A DNA stretch of 64,000 bases from NCBI RefSeq assembly GCF_014697105.1, contig NZ_JACJRF010000002.1, positions 1-64,000 of the forward strand, written 5' to 3'. Every line of letters starts with the position of its first letter. The first letter of the stretch is position 1. This document shows positions 4,788 through 30,020 of the stretch, in pieces. The stretch is from Anabaena subtropica FACHB-260. Its GTDB lineage: Bacteria; Cyanobacteriota; Cyanobacteriia; Cyanobacteriales; Nostocaceae. Under the pieces are notes generated by a model. That model was not told the DNA's origin and ran no database searches. It worked only from the letters and a program-made list of their open reading frames with translations. The translations under genes were made by a program, and so were the position numbers.

Positions 4788-4800
4788 AAATATCTACCCA

Positions 4801-5970: not shown

Positions 5971-5993
5971 ATAAAACTCATATCTGATATTAA

Positions 5994-8719: not shown

Positions 8720-8776
8720 AAAAATTTGGGACTAGGAAACAGTATTGTTATTCAACACTAACTAAACAGGTTTTTA

Positions 8777-9589: not shown

Positions 9590-9639
9590 ACAGACTCCTA
9601 TTGGCGTGTAACTTTTAGAAAAACTAAAACCCTGAAAAT

Positions 9640-10437
9640 TTACTCTTGGGGCGTTAATTTGAAGGATAGATAAGCCATCATCTTGTCTAAAAGCAAACCT
9701 ACTAAACCTAAGTAAATAATTGCTAAGATTAACTCACTAATATTGGATGTGTTGTAAGCATCTACAATGAAAAAGCCAATTCCATCGTCAGAGAGTAGCA
9801 TCTCAGCCGCTACAACAGCTAACCAAGACAAACCAAGGGCAATTCTCAATCCTGTGAAAATGTAGGGAAGTGTTGCAGGTAATTGAATTTGCAGAAAGTT
9901 CTCAAAAACTGTCAGTCCTAAAATTTTGGAAACATTAGTGTAATCTTTGGCAATCAGTTGTACACCCAAAGCAGTGTTTAGGATAATCGGCCAAATTGCT
10001 GTAATAAAGATGACAAAGATAGCAGAAGGATCTGGTTTTAGGAAAATAGCTTGCGCTAAAGGTAGCCAAGCCAGAGGCGCGACTGGACGCAACATTTGAA
10101 TGATGGGGTCGATCGCTTCTCTGATAAATTTATTGCTACTAATAATAAACCCGATAGTAATACCTACTATTGCTGCTAGGGAATAGCCGAAAACTACTCG
10201 TTCCAGACTAGCAAGAATCAGCCAGAAGAATCCTTTGTTATTGCCTCCCTTGTTAAAAAAGGGATCTATAATTAAACCCCACGTATCAATTGTCACTTGC
10301 AATGGAGAAGGCAGCGATGATTGAGGATTTAAGCTCATCAAGTACCACACACATAACATCACGGCAATACCAACAGCAGGTGCCATAATTGACTGCAATT
10401 GTCTATGGGAAATGAATTGTTTCGCGTTGATCAACAT
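9640..10437 (-). CDS. NrtB-type ABC importer permease
   Basis: A 265-residue inner-membrane permease of the binding-protein-dependent family, with about six helices and an EAA coupling loop around residues 165-200 (KILGLTVFENFLQIQLPATLP, then LRIALGLSWL). Its closest relatives by eye are NrtB, CmpB and SsuC. It is the first gene of the importer operon. The 145-base gap to the GMC oxidase gene contains no clear terminator, so read-through from upstream is possible. Compare the orphan permease at 56542-57114, which resembles this protein but lacks part of the coupling loop. Confidence 0.85.
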   Translation of the reverse strand: MLINAKQFISHRQLQSIMAPAVGIAVMLCVWYLMSLNPQSSLPSPLQVTIDTWGLIIDPFFNKGGNNKGFFWLILASLERVVFGYSLAAIVGITIGFIISSNKFIREAIDPIIQMLRPVAPLAWLPLAQAIFLKPDPSAIFVIFITAIWPIILNTALGVQLIAKDYTNVSKILGLTVFENFLQIQLPATLPYIFTGLRIALGLSWLAVVAAEMLLSDDGIGFFIVDAYNTSNISELILAIIYLGLVGLLLDKMMAYLSFKLTPQE

Positions 10438-12313: not shown

Positions 12314-13738
12314 TTAAGCTGGTTTCCAAGTACCGTGAAAACCCAGAGGAACAACACTAGGTAATCCTAATCTGCACACAGGTTGCTCATCTAAACGATC
12401 GCTGTCAAATATCCAAACTTCACTGGTGTGAGAATTACCGTCATAAACAATCGTTACTACCCAACCCTGATGCGAATTAAGGGCATTTGGTGCGTAGATT
12501 GGTTCGATTGGGTAGCGGTTTTCTCCCAGATTAGCTGTTGTGAGTGTATCAGTTTGCGGGTCAAATTTGGCGATCGCCCCAAAGTATTCTTGACTAATAT
12601 CTATTCCTGGACGCTCCATTAATAAATAAGTCGGAGAAATTTGCTGCACTTGTTGCGGTGGTACGATAGGGAACTCACAATGCTGGTTTAAAAGTTGCTG
12701 AATTGATGTAACTTTGCCTTGGGGCTTGAGTTGCACTTGCCACAATGTACTGTGAGCATGGGTGTGGGTTTGACCAGTTACCACTTCCTTGAGATATTGA
12801 TTAGTCTGGAAGTCTGCATAGCGAACCACATCTATAATTAACGCACCACTAGCATCCACATAGCTATTGCCGAAGTGCCATTGATACCAAGGTTCTGTTT
12901 CACCCCGACCGACAACCGACAGTGTTTCCCGGTCAAATACGAGAATCTCAGTCCCTAGATTTGGTTGCCATTCGAGTGCATCACTGTAGCTGCTTAAGCC
13001 TAGCAACATTGGCAGTAAATTCAGCCGCACCGGTGCAATAAAAAATACTAAATATTGTCCAGCGAGAGCAAAGTCATGCACCACTGGAGAACCCTTTAAC
13101 TTGATTGAGGCTTTTTGCCGAATCTTACCAGTGCGATCGCTTTTGTAGAGATGCAGAGTTGCATTCGGCCCAGGACTGATGCCAAAATTAAAAATCTCCC
13201 CTGTTTTGATGTCACACTTGGGATGAGCCGAATAGGGTAATCCGTGATGCAATCCTCCCAAATCATCCATTCCCTTGGTTTGTAGGGTTTCTGGATCTAA
13301 GGCATAGGGATTGTTACCTTCCCATAAAGCTAAGACTCTATCCGGTAATGCCAACACAGAAATATTCGCTGGATTCTTCATGGTTTTAAACCATCGCTTC
13401 CAGAATGGCCCCGGTGCAGTCATACCATAGGTGCTGTGAAGCAGTCGATTTGCCGCCGCTTCTTGCTGATAGCCATGAGTCTGCACATAGCGATAAACAC
13501 CAGTCGCACCAGTATCATTGAAATGTACGGCAAGAACCGCACCATCACCATCAAACCAGTGTCCCATCTTGACACCATCACGTTCTAACCGTGCTGGGCC
13601 ATTGCGATAGAGTGTACCACGTAGACCAGTTGGGATCTGACCAGAAAGAACTGGTAATTTAGTAGGCGGAAATTCTGTAGCGGGTTTGAGCGAATTAGCC
13701 CAGGCTTTTTGAGTCGTTGGCTGACTAATAGTTTGCAT
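12314..13738 (-). CDS. Carotenoid-cleavage-dioxygenase family enzyme
   Basis: A 474-residue member of the RPE65/carotenoid oxygenase family, a seven-bladed propeller with a four-His Fe(II) site. All four His motifs are visible: SAHPK, VVHDFA, QWHFGNSY and the C-terminal GFHGTW. The N-terminal LRGTLYRNGPA and HWFDGDG stretches are family hallmarks. The enzyme cleaves a conjugated C=C bond with O2 to give two carbonyls. Its usual substrates are carotenoids or apocarotenoids. Here it lies downstream of a polyene-type polyketide synthase, so a polyketide polyene is a plausible alternative substrate. It starts 22 bases after the small unknown gene. No signal peptide is seen. Confidence 0.85.
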   Translation of the reverse strand: MQTISQPTTQKAWANSLKPATEFPPTKLPVLSGQIPTGLRGTLYRNGPARLERDGVKMGHWFDGDGAVLAVHFNDTGATGVYRYVQTHGYQQEAAANRLLHSTYGMTAPGPFWKRWFKTMKNPANISVLALPDRVLALWEGNNPYALDPETLQTKGMDDLGGLHHGLPYSAHPKCDIKTGEIFNFGISPGPNATLHLYKSDRTGKIRQKASIKLKGSPVVHDFALAGQYLVFFIAPVRLNLLPMLLGLSSYSDALEWQPNLGTEILVFDRETLSVVGRGETEPWYQWHFGNSYVDASGALIIDVVRYADFQTNQYLKEVVTGQTHTHAHSTLWQVQLKPQGKVTSIQQLLNQHCEFPIVPPQQVQQISPTYLLMERPGIDISQEYFGAIAKFDPQTDTLTTANLGENRYPIEPIYAPNALNSHQGWVVTIVYDGNSHTSEVWIFDSDRLDEQPVCRLGLPSVVPLGFHGTWKPA

Positions 13739-14205: not shown

Positions 14206-15963
14206 TTAAAACCAAGGTTGTAGTTCAGGCTGATATTGATAATTTTTAAATTCTTCCCTCATTTGATTAATCAAGCTATTATCTGGAAGATTACGGGTTT
14301 TAAACAAATAAATTTGTTCGCCCATAGCAACGTATATATACAATCCGAACAATTGCAATACCCGGAATATACAACGTGGAGATAAAACACCTAAAATTCC
14401 AAATCCTTTGAAGCGTAGTTTTAAATAATAAAAGATGAGGAAAAAGAAGGTTGCTTTCATCCCAGCAAACACGTTGCAACGCAAAGCCTCAAATTTAGTA
14501 TTCTCTAGGAATTTATCAAACATTTTGGTAGGAGAGTAATTCCAGAAAAATTGATCGGCTCGCGTATAATCTACAACGCCAATATTTATTTTTCTCTCAA
14601 CCAATTTGTCAAATATTTCATACAGTTCAGTAAAAATGCTATTTTTCCCAAAGAAGATAAAATTAGCAATTTTTTGGTACTGGGAAATAAAATCAAAATC
14701 CAAAAACCACTTACCTATATACATGGGAACTAATATGCCAAACCAGAACATATTTTCCATGTAAATTCGCCAACTCATCACACTGGCATCACCTAAGTGT
14801 TTATCATGTTTCTGATAAATTTGGTTATATGTGCGAGAATTGATCAGCAAGAAATTATTGTAAAATTCCTGCTTCTGCTCAATATCAGCTTCTCCAGCCA
14901 GTTGACTACAAATGATATCGGTGGTGCTTTCAATTGCTAGAGCTGTTAGGGTTAAGCCAGGAGAATAAAACGGATCAAACATCTGCGCCGCATCACCTAA
15001 CACATACCAGTTATCTTCCGAGATAATTTTCTTACTGTTGTGTGCCAATCTTGGTAAGTGATTGAAATCAACTAATTCACCACTTTCAATCAGATTAGAA
15101 ACAACAGCGTGATTAGCTTTTAAGAAATTAGTGAACTTCTCTAAAGTATTAATCTCTTGGCTAGGAATGATATTTTTATGATAAACAATACCAATCGATA
15201 ACTCTTTTTCTTGTTTATCAATAGGAATCATCCAAATCCAATGACCATGACCAAACCAGTGGTGAGTAGCATAAAAACGACTAGCCACAGAACTGTTTGG
15301 ATGATAGCCATTGTCAATAATGCTGCGGTCTATATTCTTTACTCGCAACCACGCAGAACCGGTATTGATTCCATAAAGCTGTTCGGGGTCGAAGATTAAA
15401 TTATCGGTTTTTTTACCAATGATAAAACGACGACCAGCAGCATCAATCAGGTGCTTGGCTTTAAGGTCAATTTGATTTTCTTCAAGTTTTACCTGAACTG
15501 TATGTAGTTCATCTTTGGGTGTTAATTCCACATCTACAACTCGACCATTGTAGAAAATTGCACCCATGTCTCGATTCATTTGCAACAAATCTTGCTCTAA
15601 TTTAGCTCGATTGAGTTGAAATGTATCAATAGGAACTGTGCGATTTCCTACATGATAATAATCATCTATAGAATCAGTTTGATCAGGATTTTTTGCCCAG
15701 TGAAAATTTAATCCATGTTTGGGAGAGTGGTTTTCAATTAAATATTCATGCAAACCCAATTCTTTACTTAAGAAGGTTGCACCAATTTCTACTGTTGATT
15801 CACCCACTTTTAAATCTTTTGCAGTCCTTTCTGGTGAACGAGGATCTACAATTGCTATCTTGATATTGGGATTTTTTAATAATAGATGTCGCGCTTGGCA
15901 GTTACCTGCAAAACCTGCTCCCATAATCACGACATCATAAACTAGCTCTTGAGTAGGATTCAT
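14206..15963 (-). CDS. Flavin-dependent halogenase-like protein 1
   Basis: This 585-residue FAD protein has GAGFAG at residues 15-20. A Lys at position 82 (PKHGLNFHW) matches the place of the catalytic Lys of flavin-dependent halogenases such as PrnA. The halogenase hallmark WIWMIP is at 242-247, and FDPFYSPG at ~329-336 resembles the FAD-side motif of phenol/pyrrole halogenases. Residues ~500-565 are strongly hydrophobic, suggesting membrane association, which is unusual for halogenases. AAGGAG upstream supports the start. It is closely related to the next gene upstream, from which it is separated by 210 bases holding an inverted repeat. Known halogenases use reduced FAD, O2 and halide; a dehydrogenase or hydroxylase role is an alternative. 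No flavin reductase gene is nearby. Confidence 0.75.
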   Translation of the reverse strand: MNPTQELVYDVVIMGAGFAGNCQARHLLLKNPNIKIAIVDPRSPERTAKDLKVGESTVEIGATFLSKELGLHEYLIENHSPKHGLNFHWAKNPDQTDSIDDYYHVGNRTVPIDTFQLNRAKLEQDLLQMNRDMGAIFYNGRVVDVELTPKDELHTVQVKLEENQIDLKAKHLIDAAGRRFIIGKKTDNLIFDPEQLYGINTGSAWLRVKNIDRSIIDNGYHPNSSVASRFYATHHWFGHGHWIWMIPIDKQEKELSIGIVYHKNIIPSQEINTLEKFTNFLKANHAVVSNLIESGELVDFNHLPRLAHNSKKIISEDNWYVLGDAAQMFDPFYSPGLTLTALAIESTTDIICSQLAGEADIEQKQEFYNNFLLINSRTYNQIYQKHDKHLGDASVMSWRIYMENMFWFGILVPMYIGKWFLDFDFISQYQKIANFIFFGKNSIFTELYEIFDKLVERKINIGVVDYTRADQFFWNYSPTKMFDKFLENTKFEALRCNVFAGMKATFFFLIFYYLKLRFKGFGILGVLSPRCIFRVLQLFGLYIYVAMGEQIYLFKTRNLPDNSLINQMREEFKNYQYQPELQPWF

Positions 15964-16173: not shown

Positions 16174-17949
16174 TTAGGCTTTAATTACTTCCGTCCAAGA
16201 ACGTAAATTGGGTTGATGTTGGTAGTTTTTAAACTCTTCTCTCATAGTGTCAATAGCAGTGTTAGCTGGTACATTACGCATCTTGAACAGATAAATTTGT
16301 TCACCAATAGCGACATAAAGAGCTAACGCTAACAATTGGATGATAAAGGAAATGTTACGTGGAGATAACACACCTAAAATTCCAAAGGCACTGTAGCGTA
16401 ATTTCACGGAAGCCAGGATAAAGAACAGGAAAGTTCCCTTAATTCCAGCCAAGACATTACAACGCAAAGGCTCAAATTTGGTCTTTTTCAAGTAATCATC
16501 AAAAAATTGTAAAGGCCCATACTTAAAGAACAATTGGTCGTTGCGAGTAAAGTCCATGAGACCGATATTGAGGTTGCGCTCAACTACCAGATCAAGAATC
16601 CGATAATAATCAGAGAATAAACTATTTTTCTTGAAGAAAATAAAATTAGCTATGCTCTGGTATTGACCAATAAATTCAAAATCGAGGAACCACTTACCGA
16701 TATACATTGGCAGTAAAATACCAAACCAAAGCATATCTTCTAAATAAGTCCGCCAACTCATTGCACAAGCATTACCTAAATGTTTTTCATGTCTTTGGTA
16801 AATGTAGTTATATGAGTTAGAGTTGGTTACTAAAAAGCGATTGTAGTACTCTTGCTTTTTCGCAGCATCAGCTTCTTGGGCAAGTTTAGCACGAACACAC
16901 TCAGTCACACTTTCGATATCAAGAGCTGTGAGACTTAACCCAGGAGAATAAAAAGGATCAAACATATGTGCTGCATCACCTAACACATACCAGTTATCTT
17001 GGGAAATCATCTGGCGGCTTTTATGTGCTAGTCTTGGCAGATTATTAAAATCAACTAGTTCACCACTTTCAATGAGATTATAAAGCAGAGTATGATTCTC
17101 TTTTAAGAAAGCTTTGTATTTCTCGAAAGAGTTAATATCTTTGGTGGGAATGATGTTTTGATGATAGACAACACCAAGTGATAATTCTTTGCCAGATTTA
17201 CCAATAGGAATCATCCAAATCCAATGACCATGACCAAACCAGTGATTTGTGGTGTAGTAGTGACTGGCGATGGAAGTATCGGGATGATAGCCGTTATCAA
17301 TTATACTCCGGTCGATGTTTTTTACATGAACCCATGAAGCCCCAGTATTAATCCCATATAATTCTTCTTTGTCGAAGATGAGATTATCTAGTTTTTTCCC
17401 AATGAGAAAACGACGACCAGCCGCATCAATTACGTGCTTGGCTTTGAGGTCGATTTTACCATCTTCAAGTTTGACTTCAACAATGTGTAGTTCGTCTTTG
17501 GGAGTTAAGTCCAAATCTACAACTCTACCGTTGTAGAAAGTTGCTCCCATGTTGCGGTTCATTTGGAGTAAATCTTGTTCCAGTTTTGCCCGATTCAGTT
17601 GAAAACTTTCGGTGGGAGGTAGCCCATTTGTCCAAATGTTAAAGTAATCATCTGTACTATTAGTTTGTTCAGGATTTTTTGGCCAGTGGAAGCTCAGTCC
17701 GTGTTTAGGTGCTTGGTGTTCAATTAGATATTCATAAAGTCCCAACTCTTTAGTTAAGAAAGTAGCACCAATTTCGACTGTGGATTCGCCCACTTTTAAA
17801 TCTTTTGTCGTTCTTTCTGGTGAACGAGGATCTATAATTGCGATCTTGATGTTGGGAATGTTTAATAACAGGTGTCTAGCTTGACAGTTACCTGCGAAAC
17901 CTGCTCCCATAATCACGACATCATAAACTAATTCTTGAGTAGATTGCAT
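16174..17949 (-). CDS. Flavin-dependent halogenase-like protein 2
   Basis: This 591-residue paralogue of the 14206-15963 gene shares the same landmarks: GAGFAG, KVGESTVE, the putative catalytic Lys at residue 82 (PKHGLSFHW), WIWMIP and FDPFYSPG. The C-terminal ~90 residues are again hydrophobic with short helices (GTFLFFILASVKLRY; IQLLALALYVAIGEQIYLF). A tandem duplication is the simplest origin. Substrates may differ, as the region after the catalytic Lys differs (NPEQTNSTDDYFNIW). AAGGA precedes the ATG. It follows the DUF1702 gene by 125 bases and is probably part of the synthase transcript. Halogenation is inferred from motifs only. Confidence 0.75.
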   Translation of the reverse strand: MQSTQELVYDVVIMGAGFAGNCQARHLLLNIPNIKIAIIDPRSPERTTKDLKVGESTVEIGATFLTKELGLYEYLIEHQAPKHGLSFHWPKNPEQTNSTDDYFNIWTNGLPPTESFQLNRAKLEQDLLQMNRNMGATFYNGRVVDLDLTPKDELHIVEVKLEDGKIDLKAKHVIDAAGRRFLIGKKLDNLIFDKEELYGINTGASWVHVKNIDRSIIDNGYHPDTSIASHYYTTNHWFGHGHWIWMIPIGKSGKELSLGVVYHQNIIPTKDINSFEKYKAFLKENHTLLYNLIESGELVDFNNLPRLAHKSRQMISQDNWYVLGDAAHMFDPFYSPGLSLTALDIESVTECVRAKLAQEADAAKKQEYYNRFLVTNSNSYNYIYQRHEKHLGNACAMSWRTYLEDMLWFGILLPMYIGKWFLDFEFIGQYQSIANFIFFKKNSLFSDYYRILDLVVERNLNIGLMDFTRNDQLFFKYGPLQFFDDYLKKTKFEPLRCNVLAGIKGTFLFFILASVKLRYSAFGILGVLSPRNISFIIQLLALALYVAIGEQIYLFKMRNVPANTAIDTMREEFKNYQHQPNLRSWTEVIKA

Positions 17950-18074: not shown

Positions 18075-19046
18075 CTAGACCGCAACTGGCATTTCTATGA
18101 ATTGACGGCGAATGGTTTCTCGATAAGTTTCGTAGATTGGTTGTTCTACAAACACCTTTTCATTAGGATCAACCTTTAGCTCTTCCATCACTTTGATAGT
18201 GAGTTTGGCTGCACTTTCCGCAGACATCCCACAGTGAACGGAACAAGCTAAATCATTGTGTTCCACAATATTGTTAGAAAAATAACGAGCATTTGCAGCC
18301 TGGGTAGAACCTAGAGATACGTAAGAAGCATATTCGCCAGCCGCCGCTTTTAAATCCCGTAAAGTTTCTTCACTAACTCCACCTGCGTAGGTACTAGCTA
18401 CACCAATCCCACTCCATATATCGGCTCGACGGGATTCAGGAAACTTCTGCAATTGATTGACAATTTTGCTGATATCAGCGCTGAAGAGAAACCAGATGCT
18501 TCTACCCAATCCTCGATCAAATGCTCGCAGGGCGTAGCCGGAAACTTTCTTGGGAACAATTTGTTTTTCTGTAGTTTGTTTCCACTTAAATATCCCATTA
18601 TAAAAACCATAGCCATCCATAGCCCACCACCGTTGCATGGGGTCCAGAGGTGCTAGAGATTTTTCGATATCTCGATTCAGTACAGACATAGCAAAACCAA
18701 CACCAATGTGAGCCAAACTGCTGTGATTAGGATTCTGATCTACAAATTTTTGGAATTTGCTTTCCCGACCCAAACTGGTGTAATCAATCATAATTAAGCC
18801 CATGCCAACTCCCTCATAGGCAAAGCCACGCAGATTAATATCAAAAGATTGGAGTTCGCTGAGGATAATATGTGATAAACCAACTTCTAGAGCTGTATTA
18901 TAGCCGCTAATAAAAGCGTTACTAGATAATCTTAATTGCTTTCTTGCTTCTGTTTCAGATCCAGGAAATTCTTTCCAAAATTTATCCATACCTTCTATAG
19001 GAAGTCCGAATAAAAATCGGCGTAAAAATCCAGTGGTGAAAATCAT
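18075..19046 (-). CDS. DUF1702 family protein, copy A
   Basis: A 323-residue protein that I place in DUF1702 from its opening FLRRFLFGL, GYNTALEVGL, FAYEGVGMGL, MDGYGFYNG, FDRGLGRSIWF and DIWSGIGVA stretches. The family has no firmly known reaction. I associate it with enediyne-type polyketide loci, which fits the synthase genes 2 kb upstream. No signal peptide or trans-membrane helix is evident. Conserved Cys/His positions near residues 270-280 (NDLACSVHCGMS) are shared in pattern with copy B. It is separated from copy B by 210 bases, larger than other gaps here, so an internal promoter is possible. Confidence 0.7.
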   Translation of the reverse strand: MIFTTGFLRRFLFGLPIEGMDKFWKEFPGSETEARKQLRLSSNAFISGYNTALEVGLSHIILSELQSFDINLRGFAYEGVGMGLIMIDYTSLGRESKFQKFVDQNPNHSSLAHIGVGFAMSVLNRDIEKSLAPLDPMQRWWAMDGYGFYNGIFKWKQTTEKQIVPKKVSGYALRAFDRGLGRSIWFLFSADISKIVNQLQKFPESRRADIWSGIGVASTYAGGVSEETLRDLKAAAGEYASYVSLGSTQAANARYFSNNIVEHNDLACSVHCGMSAESAAKLTIKVMEELKVDPNEKVFVEQPIYETYRETIRRQFIEMPVAV

Positions 19047-19256: not shown

Positions 19257-20228
19257 TTAGACGGTAACTGTATTTTTCAAGAAATGAGTACGAACGCCTT
19301 CTCGGTAGGTTTCATAGATTGGTTGGTCTACGGATACCGCTTCTTGTTCATCAATAGTTAGTCCTTGGATAATGTCCAATGTGAGCCGTGCTGCATCTAT
19401 TGCTGACATCCCACACAAAACGTCACAAGCCAAGTTAGTGTGGTCGAGAATTTGATTAGTCAGGTAACGAGGATGTGCGGCTAAGGCAGCACCCAACGCT
19501 AAATAAGATGTTTTACCACCGGCTGCTAGTTTTAAATCTTGCAAAATCTGTTCATTAATTCCGCAAGTATGAGTGCAAGCTAAGGCGATACCACTCCACA
19601 GATCCCCATGACGGTGGGCAGGGAAAGATTGTAATTGTTGGATAATTCTGGGGACATCGCCGCCGTATAAAAACCAAATACCCCGTCCTAACCCTTGATC
19701 AAAGGCGCGAGTTGCGTAGCCTGTCAGCTTTTGGGGGACAACCTGCTCAAGTACCGCACTTTTCCAGTTGAGGAGTCCGGCATGGAAACCAAAGCCATCT
19801 ATTGCCCACCACCTTTGCAGGGGAATCATTTGAGCTAAAGACTGTTGTACATTCCGCTTTAAAACTGCGATCGCAAAACCTGCACCAATATGAGCCGAAC
19901 TGATATATTCAGGATTTGCATCGATAAATCGTTGTAGTCTTTGCTGGTTGCCAGGCGGAATATAGTCTAGGATTGCCAAGCCCATACTTGCCCCTGTATA
20001 AGCATACCCTGGTAACTCCCCCTTAAAAGCTTTTAATCTTGTAGTTAGATTTTCTGAGAAACCAGTCTCTAGGGCGATGTTATAGCCATTGACAAAAGCA
20101 GTGGTTGATTCCCTTAATTGTTGGCAAATATAGCTGTCAGGAATGTTCAACTTTTGCCAAGAACTGTCCATGACTTCTGTTGAGATCCCAAATATGGCGC
20201 GGCGTAAAGATCCGAAATTGGGAATCAT
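19257..20228 (-). CDS. DUF1702 family protein, copy B
   Basis: This is a paralogue of copy A (SLRRAIFGI, GYNIALETGF, YAYTGASMGLAILDY, IDGFGFHAG, FDQGLGRGIWF, GDLWSGIALAC, and the shared ending DQPIYETYRE). The frame can extend to a GTG at 20285, but I place the start at the ATG at 20228. That gives 324 residues, matching copy A, and GGAG lies 12 bases upstream. The first 19 residues of the longer form look unrelated to copy A. With the extended start the gap to the PPTase-like gene would be 13 bases. The two copies differ throughout, so the duplication is old and the functions may be distinct. Confidence 0.7.
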   Translation of the reverse strand: MIPNFGSLRRAIFGISTEVMDSSWQKLNIPDSYICQQLRESTTAFVNGYNIALETGFSENLTTRLKAFKGELPGYAYTGASMGLAILDYIPPGNQQRLQRFIDANPEYISSAHIGAGFAIAVLKRNVQQSLAQMIPLQRWWAIDGFGFHAGLLNWKSAVLEQVVPQKLTGYATRAFDQGLGRGIWFLYGGDVPRIIQQLQSFPAHRHGDLWSGIALACTHTCGINEQILQDLKLAAGGKTSYLALGAALAAHPRYLTNQILDHTNLACDVLCGMSAIDAARLTLDIIQGLTIDEQEAVSVDQPIYETYREGVRTHFLKNTVTV

Positions 20229-20298
20229 ACTTTGTTTTGATCTCCTATCGATATTTTCTGGGGAGTTAGATGGGGTAACACCCACCTAACTCAAATCT

Positions 20299-20853
20299 CT
20301 ATTTTTTATTGACCACCACTGCAACCATTCTGGGAAAGCTCTTGGTCAAGTTGACCAGAAAAGTCATCACATACAGCTTTTTATCGGCAAATTCCCCCTC
20401 GAACAATACTGTATCTTCTCTTTGAGAGTCAATTCTCAAACTAATATCCCTAGCATCAAAAGCTTTACGGAAAGCTTCTATGGCTACCCACAGGCGTGTA
20501 CCTGCTATATCTACTGAGTCGTAACCATTGGCTAGTAGTTGATTTAATAGGGATTGGCGATCGCTAGTTAACAGCAAGATCCAATCTGCTGGGGAGCGAT
20601 GGCTGACAGGAAGAATATCACAGCCTTGGGGGCCTTGACCGACCACGCACAGACAGAACCGATCATCATGGGAAAGGGATACTTCTACTTGTTGGTTCTC
20701 TAATCCTTCCAGGATTGGTTTACCAGAATCTAGCCAGTTGATGTGTATCTGTTGTGGGTTTTCTGCACCAAACAGAGGGAGAGAACGGGATTGAGTGGGA
20801 GTAAATTGCTTTGCTTTTGTGTCGGATCGATTGGACTGTACAAGGGTTGTCAT
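20299..20853 (-). CDS. Phosphopantetheinyl transferase-like protein (PKSE C-terminal domain homologue)
   Basis: The 184-residue protein contains the motifs of the PPTase domain that ends enediyne-type polyketide synthases: VSLSHDDRFCLCVVG, GPQGCDILPV (magnesium-site Asp) and TRLWVAIEAFRKA (the WxxxEAxxK signature with E and K present). It would attach phosphopantetheine to the ACP Ser of the preceding gene product. It is free-standing here, starting 45 bases after the ACP-KR-DH gene ends. The first ~30 residues (SNRSDTKAKQFTPTQSRS) look like a linker rather than a domain. A role as a non-catalytic partner cannot be excluded. Confidence 0.7.
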   Translation of the reverse strand: MTTLVQSNRSDTKAKQFTPTQSRSLPLFGAENPQQIHINWLDSGKPILEGLENQQVEVSLSHDDRFCLCVVGQGPQGCDILPVSHRSPADWILLLTSDRQSLLNQLLANGYDSVDIAGTRLWVAIEAFRKAFDARDISLRIDSQREDTVLFEGEFADKKLYVMTFLVNLTKSFPRMVAVVVNKK

Positions 20854-20898
20854 TGCTTTTGACCGTTTGTTTGTAATTACTTCAAAGTGTGTAAAAAT

Positions 20899-23800
20899 TT
20901 ACAGCAATCTAAACCACAACTCTTTCGCGGCCATGGTGAATACCAGCACCAAGGCTAAAAAGTTCAAAAACTTACCAACAGTCCGAGAAAAAATTGGTAG
21001 TTGGCGATCGTGACGTTTTTCCGTGGATAGGTTGTGCATACCAGGCATCTCTTCCAGGGATATTTGTGGTATGGTGACATCCAACGCTGCGGCTCGCTCC
21101 ACCAATTCTTGATGTAAAATTTGTTCAGTGCGATCGCCACGAGTTGCCAATTCTTCGGCTGTGGGATTGTCGGGACGGTGGTCAATCATTCTTAATTGAT
21201 AACCTTCTAACCTTTCAATTAGTCGTCCGTCTTCATCAACACTGAACACTGAGGTATCGTACTGTTTACCTTGTCTACCTTCCCCTTGTGCCACACCAAT
21301 ACAAGATTCGCTACCGTTGTTATGGGTTTGATAAATCTGAATGGCTTTGATCCCAATTGGTAATCCTAAATCTTGAGGTACCATTGGCTGCACAGACTGG
21401 AGTAGGGAATCGCGGTAATAAGGATCGCCTAACAGGAATGGGCCATCGGCTCTATCTACAGACTCTTGCACTTGCTCTACAGCATTCCTGAGCGTGCGGA
21501 AAACCATTTTTGTAGAGTTTAGGGTGTAAATCTGTTGCAAGCGTTGGAAGCGTGGGCCTTGGAACAACAACCAACTGTACAAGTCTTCTTTGGGTTGGAG
21601 AGCTAGAGGTTGTGCAGGTAATTCTACATTCTGAATATGAACTTCTATCGGTTGCCCTAAGATAAAGGTAGCAGCAAAGTGAGCTGTAGTAAACCCAGTC
21701 TGCTCAGTTCTAATTTCTGCCAAAATTTTGATCGGAGCTTTTTTAGATTCCCTCTCTAGCACTTGGGCGCGCAGTTCAATTTCTACACCATTTTGAGGAT
21801 CTACAACAATTGGCCTCTCTAGACGAATATCCTCGATCCGCACGGTATGGAACTTGTCTTGACCTACAGTATAAGCAACAGTCTGTGCCATTGCTTCTAG
21901 ACCAAACACTGTGGGGAATAGATAAGAGCCTTTGTATACGTGGTCTTTGACGTAGGAGTCTTTTTCTAAAGTCAGATGGGTACGAGCAATAATTTCAATC
22001 CCTGGATCGATAATTTGTAACTGCTCGATAAATTTGGCTGTCTGTGGGGGAGGAGTGCGTTTAACTCTCCAAGTATCAAAACCCCGTCCTAATGTCTGCA
22101 CACCGCCCAAACTGGAAGTAATCACAACTTGAGCATCACCAGGATTTTTCTGTATGAGTTGTACAAACCGATTCACACCTTCATCTTTGGGAATGGCTTT
22201 GATTCCCATGCGGCGGAGGTTGTGAACTGTTCCCATCCGCGCACCCATACCGACTTCTGCCCAAACACTGTAGGCGGTGGAAAGAACTGCGGTTTCTGGG
22301 TGTTGCTGACTGAAGCGACGCAGAATTAAATCCAACACTTCGTTAGAGAAACTATACCAAGAGTTACCGGGTAAACCAACGACTGCACCGATGGATGAAA
22401 TACCTGCAAACATCTTGGGTGGTTTATTTTGCAGTGCTTGACAGAGGTTGAATGCACCCATGACTTTTGGGGCAATTTCTACTTCAGCATCTGCCAAAGC
22501 ACAATTTTCTACCCGTCGTGCTTTATTGACTGCTGCCCCGTGAATCACCCCTGTAATATTACCTAAATCTTTCTCCACCCGTGCCACTAGTGCTGTTACG
22601 GCTTGAGCATCAGCAACATTACATTGGTAATATTGACAAGTTAATTCTTCGTCACGGAATCTTCTTAAAATCCGGGAAATTTCGGGACTGCTCTGACCTG
22701 TAGGATTTTCTTGGGGATGGGCTGAACTACCCACTAGTGCCATTTTCGCACCAGTTACTCTAGCTAAAGCTAAAGCACATTCGGCTGTAATCCCTTTTGC
22801 TCCGCCTGTAACTAAAAATACATCATTCGATGACCAAACAATATTGCGGTCTTGATATAGGGATCTGTCTTGAATTGTCGGACGAGGAATGCGTCGAGTT
22901 AGTTGAGAATCATAACCTACTGCTAAGAAAGCATCTGGTCTAGCAATCTCTTCAATGGCACGTTCTACAACCACGCTCGATTCTGCTGAAGCAGGTAAAT
23001 CGATGATGCGGACTTTCAGGTCTGGACGTTCTAGATGGAGTGTGGAGACAAAGCCGATAGTGCAACCTTGCTCGATATCACCGATTTGATGTAGTTTGCC
23101 AAAATAACCGCCACCAAATTGGATATAGCTGACACTGGTGTACTCCCGTTGTGCTTTGGATGCTTGTGGTGGGGTTGCTATAGCGTTGAGTCTAGCCATA
23201 GCTCGTTTTAACCCTACTTCTGGGGATGTCTCATCTGGAATATGCTGGGGTAGAACAGCAATGAAGTGGGTAAACTCTTCTTTTTTAATGAAGGAGTTAG
23301 CTGACATTTCTGCAAAGCTAGTCACCTCTACCTGAGCATGGAGTTGCTGAAGTTTTTGCTGAATGGTGGCGACGAAATCTGCGGCTTCTGCTTCCGCAAC
23401 TATCAAGACTTTGGCTATTTTCCAATCATCTGTTGCAAATAAGTGAGTATTTTGCCAATTCTCTTCTTGACTGGAGATACTGGCGGCTTCTTCTGCAACA
23501 AATTCAACTACAAAGTTGCGTGTCCAACCAGTTATATCTTGATCTTCATTAACAGTGGGAGTGGGTGCAGTCTGTGTAGAGGTTTGTGGTTGCGATTGTT
23601 GGGGTTGGGATAGTGCTTTGAGAGCATCGACAATTTCGATGAGACTGGCATTAGCAAAGTGCGACGGATCTAGCTGTCCTTGAACTCCCATTTGTTTAGC
23701 TGCTTGAGCAACTAATTCTGCGGATTTAATGGAGTCTAGATTTAAGTCATCCAGTAACCTAGCTTGCAGGTTAATACTATCTCGTGGATATCCAGTTTGC

Positions 23801-24138
23801 TCGACAACTAAATTCACAAGAATGTCTTGTATGGAAACTGTTGACGGTTGGGTTACCTGTTCAACTGGCTGGTTTGGTTGATGACCGTTACTAACTACAT
23901 GAATTGGTTGACTACCATTACTAACTACATGGGTGGTTGGGGGAGGTGTCAAAACCTTGATTTCTGGTTTGTGTGTTCCGTTCCCGTTAGTTGTATTGCT
24001 TTTAGCCTGTTTTGGTTTGTTATTTATCAATGATGAACTTTGTAAGTCGGCTCGAATGACTTGAGCTAAAAAGTGACCTCGGTGAGAAAAGTAGGTAGAT
24101 AGTAAGTTGATCAGTTCTTCGTTGTTGTGTGTATCCAT
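20899..24138 (-). CDS. PKSE-like polyketide synthase subunit 2: ACP-KR-DH
   Basis: This 1079-residue subunit begins with a ~35-residue helical motif (LLSTYFSHRGHFLAQVIRAD) that is also found at the end of subunit 1. A flexible linker with a doubled HVVSNGxQP follows. The ACP is at ~100-175 (LDDLNLDSIKS; Ser136 is the attachment site). The ketoreductase centres on FLVTGGAKGITAE (~445) with the Ser/Tyr pair in SSIGAVVG and WYSFSNEV. The dehydratase hot-dog spans ~755-1000 (DHVYKGSYLFPTVFGLEAMAQ region, second-half RDSLLQSV). The C-terminus is a hydrophobic stretch (FLNFLALVLVFTMAAKELWF), possibly a membrane anchor. It starts eight bases after subunit 1 ends, with a weak ribosome site, implying translational coupling. 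Confidence 0.85.
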   Translation of the reverse strand: MDTHNNEELINLLSTYFSHRGHFLAQVIRADLQSSSLINNKPKQAKSNTTNGNGTHKPEIKVLTPPPTTHVVSNGSQPIHVVSNGHQPNQPVEQVTQPSTVSIQDILVNLVVEQTGYPRDSINLQARLLDDLNLDSIKSAELVAQAAKQMGVQGQLDPSHFANASLIEIVDALKALSQPQQSQPQTSTQTAPTPTVNEDQDITGWTRNFVVEFVAEEAASISSQEENWQNTHLFATDDWKIAKVLIVAEAEAADFVATIQQKLQQLHAQVEVTSFAEMSANSFIKKEEFTHFIAVLPQHIPDETSPEVGLKRAMARLNAIATPPQASKAQREYTSVSYIQFGGGYFGKLHQIGDIEQGCTIGFVSTLHLERPDLKVRIIDLPASAESSVVVERAIEEIARPDAFLAVGYDSQLTRRIPRPTIQDRSLYQDRNIVWSSNDVFLVTGGAKGITAECALALARVTGAKMALVGSSAHPQENPTGQSSPEISRILRRFRDEELTCQYYQCNVADAQAVTALVARVEKDLGNITGVIHGAAVNKARRVENCALADAEVEIAPKVMGAFNLCQALQNKPPKMFAGISSIGAVVGLPGNSWYSFSNEVLDLILRRFSQQHPETAVLSTAYSVWAEVGMGARMGTVHNLRRMGIKAIPKDEGVNRFVQLIQKNPGDAQVVITSSLGGVQTLGRGFDTWRVKRTPPPQTAKFIEQLQIIDPGIEIIARTHLTLEKDSYVKDHVYKGSYLFPTVFGLEAMAQTVAYTVGQDKFHTVRIEDIRLERPIVVDPQNGVEIELRAQVLERESKKAPIKILAEIRTEQTGFTTAHFAATFILGQPIEVHIQNVELPAQPLALQPKEDLYSWLLFQGPRFQRLQQIYTLNSTKMVFRTLRNAVEQVQESVDRADGPFLLGDPYYRDSLLQSVQPMVPQDLGLPIGIKAIQIYQTHNNGSESCIGVAQGEGRQGKQYDTSVFSVDEDGRLIERLEGYQLRMIDHRPDNPTAEELATRGDRTEQILHQELVERAAALDVTIPQISLEEMPGMHNLSTEKRHDRQLPIFSRTVGKFLNFLALVLVFTMAAKELWFRLL

Positions 24139-24146
24139 AGGAATAT

Positions 24147-27100
24147 TTAATGATCTTGAGTGATAGTTGACAGTAAAGGTAGGCTTTCTATATCAGCCCG
24201 AATTAACTCAGCGAGGAAAAGACTTCTTTCTGAGAAATACTCAGTTAAAGCGTCTACTAGTTCTGTTTCTGAGTCGGCGAATTGGTGGATTGAGTGAGTA
24301 TGATTGACTGTTTCTGCCAAGCCATGTTCAAGGGATGCGATCGCAGATATTTCTGGATCAGACACTTGAAAAGGCCTCTCACACTGGTTCTCAATAAATA
24401 TCCGTTGTGATGCGCTCACAAACGGACGGACTAGGCGGTTGCCATAAACAACTTGCCAGTTAATTTCGCCGCCACGGACAAAGAAACTACCTAAAACGGT
24501 GTTAAAGTCGCGGTCATGTCCTGGTTTTGATTCTAGGGGAAGACAGATAAGGTTGGGGTCAGAAGTGGTTGCCTCTACCAAACCAGCCAGGACTTTTCCC
24601 GGCCCTACTTCTATCATTAAATCACACTCGCTCTCCATTGCTTTGACTAAGGAGATAAAGTTGACTTGCGAGAGCATCTGATGAGCAAAGTGCTGTTTTA
24701 ACTCTAACCCTTCCGTGGCTTTTTTTCCATCCCCACTGAGAAATAAGGGTATGGAAGTTACAGAAAGTCTTTGTGGTATCTGAGCTTTCTCTTGTAAAAA
24801 GGCTGCGGCTGAAGACATCATGCGAGAGTGGAAAGCGTTAGAAACAGGTAGTTGCCGAGTCTGGATGTTTCTCGACTGGGCTTTCTGCACTACCTCCAAA
24901 ACGCTGGCACTTTCACCAGAAATCACGGTTTGTGTGGGACTGTTAATATTAGCGATCGCTACATAACCAGACACCCCAGTTAATAGTTGCTCAGCAGTTT
25001 GGTAATCGCAGTTGAGACTAGCCATTGCACCGCTTTGATCCTGAGTCGCAGACATGGCTTTACCACGCATGGCTGCTAGACAAATCAGGGTTTTCTCGTC
25101 ATAAGCACCGGCAGCACAAAAGGCTGTCAGTTCACCCAAGCTGTGACCACCTACAGCCACAGGTTTAATTCCCAGATATTCCAGGTACTTTTGCCAGAGT
25201 AAAGACACGAAGCATATAGCTGGTGAAGTTATTTCGGCTTTGGTTAAATCTTCTGACCATGTTTTGAGTTGCTCGGCATCGGCAGCTTTCTCTAGAGGAT
25301 GATAGATATATTGACTGATGGGTTCACATCCAGCCTCTTTTAACCAATTATCGGCTTGCTCTAGAAATTGCTTTGCCCAGGTATGTCTTTCTACTAAGGT
25401 TCGGGCCATATTCAATTTTTGCGAACCTTGACCAGGGAAAAGAAAAGCTACTCGACAATTTTGGATATTGTTACCAATCCAGATGTCTTTTTGCGGAGAA
25501 ACTCTGATTTCCCCTGCACTGGGAGGCATATCTTGCAGCATTTGCTCTAACTGCTGTAAACGCTCCCATAAAGCCATAGGAGTGTCAACAATTAATGCTG
25601 CTCGAATTGGCTGTGCAGAATCTATGGATTCTGTTAACTGCACTGCCAAATCAACCATTTCTGCCATGCTCATCCCATGTGCCGTTTCCCTAATCATTTG
25701 GGTGCGGGCGATTAAATCTGTAATCGATTTGGCACTGAGAACAAACAACTCTGTATCCTGATGAGAAACTAACAATGCTTGTTCTGTGAGGGATGGTTTT
25801 AAGTGGGGCGCGGGTGGATCTCCAGATTCTAAGGTGATGTGGGAATTAATGCCACCAAACCCCATAGCGGAAACTCCGGCTCGGAGAATATCCGTTGGCT
25901 GGCGTACTTCTCCAGAGATGACTGGATAGACAGACTTAACGGTAGTCTCGAACACGGCGTTAAGTTCTTTGCAACCACAAGTAGGCGGAATGACTCTTTG
26001 GTTAACAGCCATAACAGCCTTGATAAAACCACCGATACCAGCTGCGGCTTTTGTATGTCCTACTAGGGATTTGAAAGAAGTTACCCCGACAGAACGAGGT
26101 GCAATTTCTCCATCTTCAGCGATCGCTAGAGCAATTCCTTCTAATTCTGTGCGATCGCCTACTGGTGTTCCTGTACCATGTCCCTCGATGAAGTCTAGGT
26201 CGTGACTTGTGTAAGGTGCTTTATTATAGGCACGACGGAGGGCTTTGGCTTGACCAGTTTTCGAGGGTGCGGTAATTCCGCCTTTACCATCTGATGAGAT
26301 TCCCCAACCTTGGATGACGGCATAGACATAATCTCCAGCTGCTCTGGCATCTTCTAATCGCTTCAGCACGACAAAGCCGCATCCTTCGCCGGGAATAAAG
26401 CCACTAGCTTTGCGATCGTAAACATTCATATCTCCTTCTGTGAGCGCGCCTGCCTTGGCAAAGCCAATCAATTCAAAGGTATCTAAACTAATGTCTACGC
26501 CTCCAGCTAAGGCAATATCTAGTTCTTGGGTTGCTAGTTGAGTACAGGCAGTCGCTACGGCAATTAGAGAAGAAGAACAAGCTCCGTCTACTACATATCC
26601 GCCACCGTCAAAATTGAAGAAATTGCAAACTCTACCTGCCACCGTATTCGCCAGATTACCGGCTAAAGTATCTTCTGTAATTGGCGCAAACACAGATTTG
26701 TAGTATTTTTCCATTGTTGCTACAAGCACTTCTGTGTTTTTTGCAGACATACCCTTGGCTGTTGCTGCTGCCTCTAGAGACTTGCGGACAAAAGGCCAGC
26801 GTAATCGCATATATTGAGAACGACTTTGTTCTCCTGTTAAGGTGTTGCCTAAAATAACTCCTGTGCGTTCTGTAGGGACGTTTTCACGGGTATATCCGGC
26901 ATTTTCTATAGCTTGTAAAGCGACTTCTAGGGCTAACCAGTGAACAATATCAGATGACTCATAAGCTCTTTTGGGAACTCGTCGATTAGCCCAGTCAAAA
27001 TCAAAGCCATCTATAACAGCAGCTCGACTGCCATAGGTCTTGTCTGGGGTTTTGCGATCTGGATCGTGGTATTGAGATACTGGCAATCTTACGTCTGGAA

Positions 27101-27224
27101 ACTGTCGAAACTCGCGTCTTCTTGCAAGTATGTTTTCCCAAAGTTGTTTGAGGTTATTGCTACCAGGGTAATGACAACCCATGCCAACAACTGCAACAGC
27201 AAAGTTATTTGCTTTAGCGAACAT
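24147..27224 (-). CDS. PKSE-like polyketide synthase subunit 1: KS-AT
   Basis: This 1025-residue subunit has a ketosynthase at ~8-465 with Cys216 (VDGACSSS), His349 (EGHGTGTP) and His390 (VGHTKAAA). Enediyne-type hallmarks are GNTLTGE, MRLRWPFVR, EDTLAGNLANTVAGRVCN and GWGISSDGKGGIT. The acyltransferase lies at ~590-880 with GHSLGE (Ser695) and NAFH (796-799), which indicates malonyl-CoA. The last ~60 residues hold LTEYFSERSLFLAELIRAD, repeated at the start of subunit 2. Together with subunit 2 it would run iterative extension, reduction and dehydration to a linear polyene. Heterocyst glycolipid (Hgl) synthases are related, and separating the two needs a KS tree. The ATG has no strong ribosome site. 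A ~690-base AT-rich leader lies upstream. Confidence 0.88.
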   Translation of the reverse strand: MFAKANNFAVAVVGMGCHYPGSNNLKQLWENILARRREFRQFPDVRLPVSQYHDPDRKTPDKTYGSRAAVIDGFDFDWANRRVPKRAYESSDIVHWLALEVALQAIENAGYTRENVPTERTGVILGNTLTGEQSRSQYMRLRWPFVRKSLEAAATAKGMSAKNTEVLVATMEKYYKSVFAPITEDTLAGNLANTVAGRVCNFFNFDGGGYVVDGACSSSLIAVATACTQLATQELDIALAGGVDISLDTFELIGFAKAGALTEGDMNVYDRKASGFIPGEGCGFVVLKRLEDARAAGDYVYAVIQGWGISSDGKGGITAPSKTGQAKALRRAYNKAPYTSHDLDFIEGHGTGTPVGDRTELEGIALAIAEDGEIAPRSVGVTSFKSLVGHTKAAAGIGGFIKAVMAVNQRVIPPTCGCKELNAVFETTVKSVYPVISGEVRQPTDILRAGVSAMGFGGINSHITLESGDPPAPHLKPSLTEQALLVSHQDTELFVLSAKSITDLIARTQMIRETAHGMSMAEMVDLAVQLTESIDSAQPIRAALIVDTPMALWERLQQLEQMLQDMPPSAGEIRVSPQKDIWIGNNIQNCRVAFLFPGQGSQKLNMARTLVERHTWAKQFLEQADNWLKEAGCEPISQYIYHPLEKAADAEQLKTWSEDLTKAEITSPAICFVSLLWQKYLEYLGIKPVAVGGHSLGELTAFCAAGAYDEKTLICLAAMRGKAMSATQDQSGAMASLNCDYQTAEQLLTGVSGYVAIANINSPTQTVISGESASVLEVVQKAQSRNIQTRQLPVSNAFHSRMMSSAAAFLQEKAQIPQRLSVTSIPLFLSGDGKKATEGLELKQHFAHQMLSQVNFISLVKAMESECDLMIEVGPGKVLAGLVEATTSDPNLICLPLESKPGHDRDFNTVLGSFFVRGGEINWQVVYGNRLVRPFVSASQRIFIENQCERPFQVSDPEISAIASLEHGLAETVNHTHSIHQFADSETELVDALTEYFSERSLFLAELIRADIESLPLLSTITQDH

Positions 27225-28156: not shown

Positions 28157-28222
28157 CTAAGACTTAATTTCAGCCCAATGTTGATACTTTTTGAACTCTT
28201 GATGTCTCTTGTTCATCTGATT
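28157..28222 (-). pseudogene. Relic of a second halogenase C-terminus, overlapping halogenase 3
   Basis: In the minus-strand frame offset from the halogenase-3 gene, this stretch reads NQMNKRHQEFKKYQHWAEI and then stops. That matches the end pattern of all three halogenase-like proteins (R-x-EF-x-NY-x-HQPEL). The last ~20 residues of halogenase 3 are therefore an out-of-frame reading of this relic. It suggests that a tail of another paralogue was joined here by recombination or deletion. Confidence 0.55.
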
Positions 28223-30020
28223 GTGCCTCTCCTACCTTCTGGTTATGCACAGATACATAAGCTATTTCCTGATCCCAAGGTTGCAATTCTGGTTGGTGAC
28301 GATAGTTAGTGAACTCTTGACGCATCTTCGCTACTTGACTATTGGTTGGTAGGCCTTTAATTTTCTGCTTGTAGAATAACTCGCTAATAGCCATAAACCC
28401 TGCTATTATCAACAACCGGAAGAAATGGTATAGGTGTTTTGGCGCTAGTAAGCCGGGAAGGCCAAAGCCTTTCCACTGTAATTTCATGTACCAGATAGCA
28501 AAGTAGAAGTGTGTTTTTTTCAAGCCTGCGAAGACGTTGCAATGCCAAGGTTCAAATTTAGCATTTTCTAAGAAATGATCAAAGTGCATCAGGGTGTTAT
28601 AGTCTCCAAACAACTGATCTCCCCGATAACAGTCCATAAATCCGATGTTGGCTTGTCGATCTACTAATTTGTTGAATTGTTTGTAGACATCAATAAACAG
28701 TCCGTTCACAGTGTCTCGATAGATATTGATGAAACTCTTGAGAAATGTCAGATGTAAATGCCATTTACCAACGAACAGAGGTACAACTATGCCAAACCAC
28801 AACATATATTCAAAGTAAATGCGCCAGCTCATAACACTAGCATTACCTAAGTGCTTGGGATGGTCACGCATGAGTTGATTAATACCGCCGCTTTGGACGA
28901 CGTTAAACTCGTTGTATGCAGTCCGCTTTGCTTCTGCATCAGGTTCTCCTGCTAGCTTGGCGCGAATAATCTCTGTCACACTCTCAATTGCAAATGCCGT
29001 CATTGAACTTCCCATCGAATAGAAAGCATCAAAAATACAAGCAGCATCACCAATTACATACCAGTTATCTGGAGAGAACATCACTTTACTGGTGTGTGCC
29101 AACCTCGGCCAGTAGTGGAAATCGATGTTTTCACCGCTAGCGACTAGTTGGTAGAGAATGTTGTGGTTCGCTTTCAGGAAAGCATAAAACTTCTCCTGAG
29201 TGTTGATACTATCAGTGGGAATCACATCATGATGTTGGATAATCCCAATTGATAACTCCATTGATTGAGTGTCAGTAGGAATCATCCATAGCCAGTGACC
29301 ATGACCAAACCAGTGATTTGTGGCATAGTAATGACTGCATGAAGCACCATCTGGGTCATAGCCATCGTGGAAGATCGTGCGGTCTACATTTTTAACGCGC
29401 ACCCATGCTGAACCAGTGTTGACACCACAGAGATTATCCGGCCCAAACAAAACATTATCGGTTTTGCGACCAATAATAAATTTACGACCGGCAGCATCAA
29501 CCACGTGTTTGGTTTTGAGTTCCAGAGATTCATTACCGACCTTGACTTTGACGGTCTTGAGCGCATCCCCTGGCGTTAGATCCACGTCAACCACACGACC
29601 GTTATAAAAGACCGCACCCATATCTTTGTTCATTTTCAGCAAATCTCGCTCGAATTTAGCGCGGTTTAGCTGAGTAGCAGTCATGGCAGGTTGTCGATTA
29701 GTCCAGACGTGATAGTAGTCTTCGATATTCCCGGTTTTTGCTGGGTCTTTAGGCCAATGAAAGTTCAGTCCAAACTTAGGAGGATGATTTTCGATGACGT
29801 ATTCATAAAGACCTAATTCTTTACAAATAAACAGAGCAGCAACTTCAACTGTTGACTCACCAATTTTTAGGTCTTTTTCTGTGCGTTCTTCAGGACGTGG
29901 GTCTATTAAGGCGATCTTGATATTGGGAACTTTGAGTAGTAGGTGTCGAGCTTGGCAGTTGCCAGCAAGGCCTGCACCCATGATTACGACATCGTACTCT
30001 TGTGTCTGGACACTGTGCAT
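28170..30020 (-). CDS. Flavin-dependent halogenase-like protein 3 (divergent)
   Basis: This 616-residue paralogue of the two genes at 14206-17949 retains GAGLAG, KIGESTVE, a Lys at residue 82 (PKFGLNFHW) and the WLWMIP motif. The motif that reads FDPFYSPG in the other two is FDAFYSMG here, losing both prolines beside the conserved Ser, so cofactor or halide handling may differ. The extra C-terminal ~30 residues (VGEAQSDEQETS and on) are unlike the paralogues and end in an out-of-frame relic. AAGGAG upstream supports the start. It is the first gene of the cluster in transcription order but is parted from the synthase by ~945 bases with tandem repeats, so it probably has its own promoter. Confidence 0.75.
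   Translation of the reverse strand: MHSVQTQEYDVVIMGAGLAGNCQARHLLLKVPNIKIALIDPRPEERTEKDLKIGESTVEVAALFICKELGLYEYVIENHPPKFGLNFHWPKDPAKTGNIEDYYHVWTNRQPAMTATQLNRAKFERDLLKMNKDMGAVFYNGRVVDVDLTPGDALKTVKVKVGNESLELKTKHVVDAAGRKFIIGRKTDNVLFGPDNLCGVNTGSAWVRVKNVDRTIFHDGYDPDGASCSHYYATNHWFGHGHWLWMIPTDTQSMELSIGIIQHHDVIPTDSINTQEKFYAFLKANHNILYQLVASGENIDFHYWPRLAHTSKVMFSPDNWYVIGDAACIFDAFYSMGSSMTAFAIESVTEIIRAKLAGEPDAEAKRTAYNEFNVVQSGGINQLMRDHPKHLGNASVMSWRIYFEYMLWFGIVVPLFVGKWHLHLTFLKSFINIYRDTVNGLFIDVYKQFNKLVDRQANIGFMDCYRGDQLFGDYNTLMHFDHFLENAKFEPWHCNVFAGLKKTHFYFAIWYMKLQWKGFGLPGLLAPKHLYHFFRLLIIAGFMAISELFYKQKIKGLPTNSQVAKMRQEFTNYRHQPELQPWDQEIAYVSVHNQKVGEAQSDEQETSRVQKVSTLG

Follow-up and report, generated by a model that had tools for sequence, protein, structure and literature searches.

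The gene cluster described here lies in Anabaena subtropica FACHB-260, at positions 1 to 64,000 of contig NZ_JACJRF010000002.1; this whole stretch of 64,000 nucleotides is referred to as the window. Three adjacent genes of the window (20299..27224) probably encode an iterative polyene synthase that is assembled in trans. To judge from sequence, its product would be a linear conjugated polyketide, which is probably halogenated in its acyl carrier protein (ACP)-bound form and exported. We give this reading a probability of about 0.6. The ketosynthase (KS) falls in the sister clade of the enediyne polyketide synthases (PKSEs), the enzymes with which enediyne antitumour antibiotics begin; the non-cyanobacterial members of this sister clade are mostly single chains, and a linker that follows the acyltransferase (AT) is found on both sides of the cut between the two large subunits. 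In transcription order, the three genes are:

24147..27224, reverse strand: KS-AT subunit, 1025 aa; C-terminal linker of about 25 aa, LTEYFSERSLFLAELIRADIESLPL, at residues 993-1017
20899..24138, reverse strand: subunit with ACP, ketoreductase (KR) and dehydratase (DH), 1079 aa; has a second copy of the KS-AT linker (residues 13-37), DLNLDSIK as its ACP serine motif, and a C-terminal tail that is hydrophobic
20299..20853, reverse strand: free-standing Sfp/PptT-type phosphopantetheinyl transferase (PPTase; PPT for the domain), 184 aa; without the thioesterase (TE) part that follows PPT in many relatives

The trio consists of real, intact genes in one tight operon, with intergenic gaps of 8 bp (KS-AT/ACP-KR-DH) and 45 bp (ACP-KR-DH/PPTase). 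Pfam identifies KS (PF00109, PF02801) and AT (PF00698) in the first protein and PP-binding, KR and PS-DH in the second; no enoylreductase (ER) is among the Pfam domains listed for the operon. The active-site motifs of the synthase are in place. The dN/dS values of 0.09-0.37 over the seven genes tested denote purifying selection, and the frames are intact in the window and in its relatives L067 and L070 (L and G numbers are our handles for loci and genomes). No Pfam family matches the 184-aa protein. Its predicted fold is that of PptT/Sfp, and the core motif S..H / CD / W / R.W..E..K is common to it and to SgcE, the C-1027 synthase. The metal/CoA residues D78, E125 and K129 (in CD and E...K) are invariant in 16/16 aligned PPTases, SgcE and L043 standing outside that alignment, and the Asp, Glu and Lys are also kept in the PPTase domain of SgcE. 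The order of domains over three adjacent genes and the PPTase-like nature of the last, both claimed in the original prediction, are therefore borne out by the open reading frames (ORFs), Pfam and the predicted fold. Absence of the PPTase from homologous loci, which it had named as a counter-argument, was not seen, since a PPTase gene or domain occurs in all 33 searched homologous loci that hold the 3' part of the synthase.

Position among polyketide synthases

The KS tree comprises 75 KS domains, with SgcE as the only characterised PKSE and without PfaA. A branch of 1.15 (100/99) parts the heterocyst glycolipid (HGL)-type and modular KSs from 61 PKSE-like KSs, of which L113 lies outside and the other 60 fall into two sister clades. 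The PKSE clade (28 rows, 100/99) contains eight cyanobacterial PKSEs besides SgcE and the actinobacterial loci. The window lies in the other (32 rows, 100/98), which includes L138 and L088, both labelled PKSE beforehand; the rows L088, L049b and L049c have long branches and are of unsure placement. The 15 cyanobacterial rows inside the window's clade form one clade (95/89), and the window KS groups with those of Dendronalium (L070) and a Nostocales metagenome-assembled genome (MAG; L067) at 100/98. The ACP motif draws the same line. D(L/F)N(L/I/M)DSIK occurs in 28/28 window-like proteins, while H(L/M)(S/N)SI occurs in 22/22 PKSEs and 0/28 window-like proteins, with no overlap with respect to the KS clades. 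The PKSE motif is given as H(L/M)(S/T/N)S(I/L) in PMC3107222.

With a sister KS clade and a distinct ACP motif, the window synthase is, by its sequence placement, a close cousin of the enediyne PKSEs and not a member. The original prediction was right in preferring PKSE kinship over HGL kinship, and the clustering inside HGL synthases that would have spoken against it is not what the tree gives. Its assignment to the enediyne PKSEs themselves does not survive: the KS is in the sister clade (100/98 vs 100/99), the ACP motif is another, and the partner genes UnbV, UnbU and E10 are unmatched in the window. At the KS level, enediyne-classed sequences from beyond the actinobacteria, also from cyanobacteria, had been noticed earlier (PMC10308959, PMC4247773). 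The non-actinobacterial 'enediyne KS' lineages described in PMC10308959 may correspond to the PKSE-like synthases from other phyla that are compared below.

Fission series and linker

The ACP-KR-DH protein was matched at E<=1e-60 in at least 11 of 386 genomes of the phylum, the window's own genome counted; the figure is a lower bound, as two candidates were scored per listed genome. Among these 11, G201 holds a PKSE sensu stricto and G058 and G251 hold a Dolichospermum type. The cyanobacterial relatives are cut in different ways:

One chain, KS-AT-ACP-KR-DH-PPT, no TE: G274, G582, Nostoc WHI (L074)
One chain with a hot-dog TE: G112
KS-AT-ACP-KR-DH and PPT, no TE: Fischerella (L069)
KS-AT and ACP-KR-DH-PPT-TE: Microcystis novacekii (L068), G202, G207, Gloeothece (L164)
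KS-AT, ACP-KR-DH and PPT-TE: Hyellaceae (L042/L087), G198, LEGE 11386
KS-AT, ACP-KR-DH and PPT, no TE: the window, L067 (Nostocales MAG), L070 (Dendronalium phyllosphericum)

Four genes with an interrupted KS are found in a Dolichospermum-type relative. Judging by this distribution, the split is inherited and common to relatives. A split with a free PPTase, held to be unusual in the original prediction, is thus real but shared, several relatives having the PPTase fused to TE or to the rest of the synthase; the same three-gene split was indeed met in the Nostocales MAG L067 and in Dendronalium (L070). All 14 non-cyanobacterial loci tested hold both the PPT and the TE parts, so that the TE was probably lost later. 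On the KS-C/AT tree, whose deep branches are weak, the fission would take 3 changes.

The linker of about 25 residues, L..YF..R..FLA..I.AD, was defined as a pattern from cyanobacterial sequences, and up to 4 mismatches were counted. It stands at the C-terminal end of KS-AT and near the N-terminal end of the ACP subunit in 12/12 AT|ACP-split pairs tested. Of these, 10 are standard pairs and two, L082 and L162 (2-3 mismatches), are of the Dolichospermum type; the test did not extend to the ACP side of L161, and L068 and L160 are near-copies. One-chain cyanobacterial relatives have a single copy in 4/5 cases and none in G112. The 14 non-cyanobacterial proteins divide into seven with one copy and seven with none, and the linker was found in 0/5 PKSEs. 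The pattern fits a fission through partial duplication in which the linker was kept, presumably as an interaction element.

The C-terminal end of the ACP-KR-DH protein of the trio is hydrophobic, with TVGKFLNFLALVLVFTMAA as the best 19 residues, and possibly forms a single membrane anchor. Kyte-Doolittle means of this tail are 1.81 in the window, which is borderline, 2.19 in L067 and 1.97 in L070, and no hydrophobic tail was seen by eye at the C-terminal ends of L042, L043, L071 and L069. At the DH/PPT junction of L070 (about 16190-16290), an imperfect direct repeat was observed by eye around the tail-coding stretch, perhaps a trace of how the DH/PPT cut arose.

Dolichospermum-type loci show a different kind of interruption. 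The KS frame is broken just past the active-site cysteine region in L161, L162, L082 and L171 at runs of 7, 10, 11 and 11 G, respectively. All four frames are displaced in the same register with both halves conserved; L082 and L171 are possibly one and the same strain. Candidate causes are phase variation, slippage and decay. In L162, the gene for a class I/II aminotransferase-type pyridoxal phosphate enzyme (10769-12136) also separates the ACP gene from KR-DH-PPT, and downstream lie DevBCA-like genes together with an amine-oxidase-type flavoprotein (5631-7208); ORFs of similar sizes occur in L082, of which only the flavoprotein was tested.

Neighbouring genes and proposed pathway

The genes around the trio are:

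28170..30020, reverse strand: flavin-dependent halogenase-like enzyme c, upstream of the synthase genes
19257..20285, reverse strand: DUF1702 protein a (PF08012), by Pfam; enediyne-cassette family
18075..19046, reverse strand: DUF1702 protein b, by Pfam; predicted all-helical, predicted local distance difference test (pLDDT) 93.9
16174..17949, reverse strand: flavin-dependent halogenase-like enzyme b; has the WxWxIP motif, and PltA is the nearest sequence of solved structure
14206..15963, reverse strand: flavin-dependent halogenase-like enzyme a
12314..13738, reverse strand: member of the RPE65/carotenoid-oxygenase family; several related loci have one too
10583..12169, reverse strand: GMC-type oxidoreductase, with a relative near the G274 cluster
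7409..10437, reverse strand: three-gene ATP-binding cassette (ABC) importer; NMT1-like binding protein 7409-8719, ATPase 8777-9589, permease 9640-10437
4113..7310, reverse strand: DevBCA-like exporter; HlyD-type 5994-7310, FtsX-type permease 4801-5970, ATPase 4113-4787

Genes for a short-chain dehydrogenase/reductase and an alpha/beta hydrolase are also in the run downstream of the synthase, and the NMT1-like importer recurs beside the G274 cluster (L046) at about 50% identity.

All three flavoproteins of the window contain WxW(x)IP, PK(F/H)GL and a D(P/A)FYS stretch in addition to a flavin adenine dinucleotide (FAD) domain. The protein of 16174-17949 matches 15 PDB sequences at E<=0.001, of which 13 are named halogenase and the others are the alkylhalidase CmlS and ChlB4. 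The best is PltA, a halogenase acting on a carrier-bound substrate (E 5.3e-18 over 339 residues). PK(F/H)G of the window enzymes aligns within one residue with PKKFG of PltA, a region that we take to hold the catalytic lysine of halogenases. At least two halogenase-like genes lie beside the synthase in the window and in 14/14 other cyanobacterial KS-tree loci (L061 read through L046, L062 through L045 and L059 with L060; one L042 gene in two ORFs), and one lies within the 14 kb searched in G489. The count was 0/21 in non-cyanobacterial loci searched alike, several of these contigs being short. RefSeq annotates the three halogenase-like genes of Gloeothece PCC 7822 as tryptophan 7-halogenase. 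The Gloeothece locus L164, which also has a carotenoid oxygenase gene, lies on the 880 kb plasmid Cy782201 of the culture-collection strain Gloeothece verrucosa PCC 7822.

The two DUF1702 proteins score 249.7 and 274 bits against a Pfam threshold of 25, and DUF1702 was found in 18/291 genomes drawn from the order; no convincing PDB match was found for it. The partners of PKSE in the enediyne cassette are E3/E4/E5/E10 (PMC5181780). Tblastn (E 0.01) with UnbV, UnbU, the E10 TE and a double hot-dog TE gave no match in the window and gave matches in control loci. PF07593 (UnbV) was not found in G000, G274, G198, G112 and G207, nor the UnbV family in the window's own genome; the positive genomes G201 and G084 did contain PF07593, and G254 had a single copy on another contig. 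In the cyanobacterial PKSE locus L036, the gene order is DUF1702, UnbV (PF07593), an NQR2/RnfD-like membrane protein and PKSE. On the C-1027 plasmid, SgcE is preceded by two genes annotated as DUF1702, one for a CRTAC1-family protein and one for an Rnf-type subunit. Since UnbV and UnbU are unmatched in the window, an enediyne core is not expected. In the gammaproteobacterial relative L081 (16779-22161), a separate hot-dog TE and two weakly UnbV-like proteins lie directly downstream, an arrangement that is a possible link between the two KS clades.

In the pathway that we propose, the PPTase protein would prime the ACP in trans and the two large subunits would use the duplicated linker for docking. 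Several rounds of KS-AT, KR and DH would then leave an all-conjugated polyene on the ACP; a conjugated polyene is what one expects when a synthase works iteratively with KR and DH and lacks ER. An SgcE-type PKSE together with a thioesterase gives a linear heptaene (PMC8725005). Judged by gene company, the halogenase-like flavoproteins would halogenate the polyene and the DevBCA-like system would export the product, while the DUF1702 proteins and the RPE65-type oxygenase may tailor or cleave the chain. The GMC oxidoreductase is likely a tailoring enzyme as well. Membership of the ABC importer in the pathway is uncertain, and that it imports anions and so supplies halide is no more than a guess. 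The original prediction covered the three synthase genes only; the DUF1702, halogenase-like, oxygenase and exporter genes around them alter the likely product.

Several observations weigh against this pathway. DUF1702 is unmatched in the searched DNA of L068, L069, L071, L074, L059-L060, L160 and L164, some stretches being short, and may therefore be dispensable; only 5/14 related tree loci gave a match to the RPE65-type gene. The Dolichospermum-type L082, L161 and L162 have no halogenase-like gene in the DNA searched, so halogenation is not common to all cyanobacterial relatives, and the NCBIfam matches of the halogenase-like proteins (LodB maturase at the top, GG-reductase, CmlS) are all far below the cut-offs. 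DevBC-like genes also occur near cyanobacterial PKSE or PKSE-type DUF1702 loci (L038, L039, L040, L041, L044, L047, L092), and the exporter thus says little on the product. The PPTase of the relative L043 has lost the catalytic Glu. In the window PPTase, the second acidic residue of (G)xDxE is Leu80, where SgcE has Glu and the nearest relatives have Ala or Ile. One Pfam-recognised PPTase is encoded elsewhere in the genome (C12:73617) and could prime the ACP instead. Finally, tblastn gave no TE match in the window, which leaves the release step without a matching TE; outside the window, the genome encodes three members of family 4HBT_2, of which one is located at 227783 of the same contig, over 160 kb past the window end.

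A true enediyne PKSE that was split by chance and supplies an enediyne-like product with its usual C15 heptaene, which is the original prediction in its strict form, would share the domain order, the KS wording, the SgcE-type PPTase domain and the two DUF1702 genes of the C-1027 locus. The sister position of the KS, by which the tree weakens this proposal, the PKSE ACP motif in none of the 28 window-like proteins and the unmatched cassette partners, with an UnbV family that is found in G084 and G201 yet not in this genome, render it quite improbable. A lipid synthase akin to HGL or polyunsaturated fatty acid (PUFA) systems, whose product would be a long-chain lipid, hydroxy or saturated, destined for an envelope layer, is suggested by the adjoining exporter, as DevBCA is the heterocyst glycolipid exporter family, by the hydrophobic tail and by the LDSIK-type ACP motif, which we presume to be PUFA-like. 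It is nonetheless unlikely, given the long supported branch from the HGL-type KSs in a tree without PfaA, scores of 442.8 and 183.5 bits for the two synthase proteins with the PfaA model TIGR02813 (NCBIfam), where the cut-off of 1010.1 was not reached, and no ER listed in the operon.

The flavin enzymes might instead be oxygenases, desaturases or maturases, in which case the polyene would be oxidised and halogen-free. Their distance from characterised halogenases, PltA included, and the LodB maturase as top NCBIfam model lend this some weight; WxWxIP in all three, the lysine region aligned with PltA and the halogenase names of 13/15 PDB matches speak against it, and we hold it to be a minor though serious possibility. 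That the locus is decaying or silent, with the split as a step of decay, is very improbable. The lost TE part, the lost acidic PPTase residue and the interrupted Dolichospermum-type KS frames would agree with decay, but frames are intact and under purifying selection in the window, L067 and L070, and all three have the same three-gene split.

An extended form of the polyene pathway, to which we attach only tentative belief, is a dispersed factory in which a membrane-tethered ACP-KR-DH, docked to KS-AT by a linker that was duplicated as the gene divided and primed by a free PPTase, would deliver a poly-halogenated conjugated polyene to a DUF1702 pair that acts without UnbV/UnbU. If so, the DUF1702 step would be separable from the other steps of the enediyne cassette, and halogenated polyenes would occur naturally. 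An iodinated intermediate has been reported in dynemicin biosynthesis, a parallel to halogenated polyenes, and the route from PKSE polyenes to enediyne cores is mostly unknown (PMC8725005). A DUF1702 pair beside a PKSE-like synthase without UnbV/UnbU makes its role testable alone. The fission series is a natural experiment in which an iterative megasynthase is divided yet kept by selection, and the product class may be new for cyanobacteria.

Comparison with known systems

The window resembles SgcE/CalE8 in the order KS-AT-ACP-KR-DH-PPTase, in a KS 49% identical to that of SgcE over 461 columns, in the PPTase motif and in the DUF1702 neighbours. It differs in having three chains in place of one polypeptide, a KS of the sister clade, DLNLDSIK as ACP motif and no match for UnbV/UnbU/E10, and in the presence of halogenase-like and RPE65-type genes. 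The PKSE-like synthases of Methylococcus, Desulfobacterota, Nitrospirota, Bacteroidota and Bdellovibrionota share its KS clade and ACP motif; those that are complete mostly consist of a single chain of about 2250-2960 aa, with the TE separate in L081, and a halogenase-like or DUF1702 best match was seen in 0/21 of these loci, several of which are short. The own-genome heterocyst glycolipid-type synthase (C12:22950-25589), of an iterative KS-AT family with a DevBCA-type exporter, is 33% identical to the window synthase and falls in a separate KS clade. The halogenase-like enzymes have WxWxIP and the FAD domain in common with PltA/CmlS, and their lysine region aligns with that of PltA within one residue, but they are distant, longer (585-616 aa) and placed in twos or threes beside a PKSE-like synthase. 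The cyanobacterial relatives (L070, L067, L042/L087, L068, L164, L069, L074) have a KS-AT that is 59-86% identical and at least two halogenase-like genes; they differ from the window or from each other in their cuts, from one chain to three.

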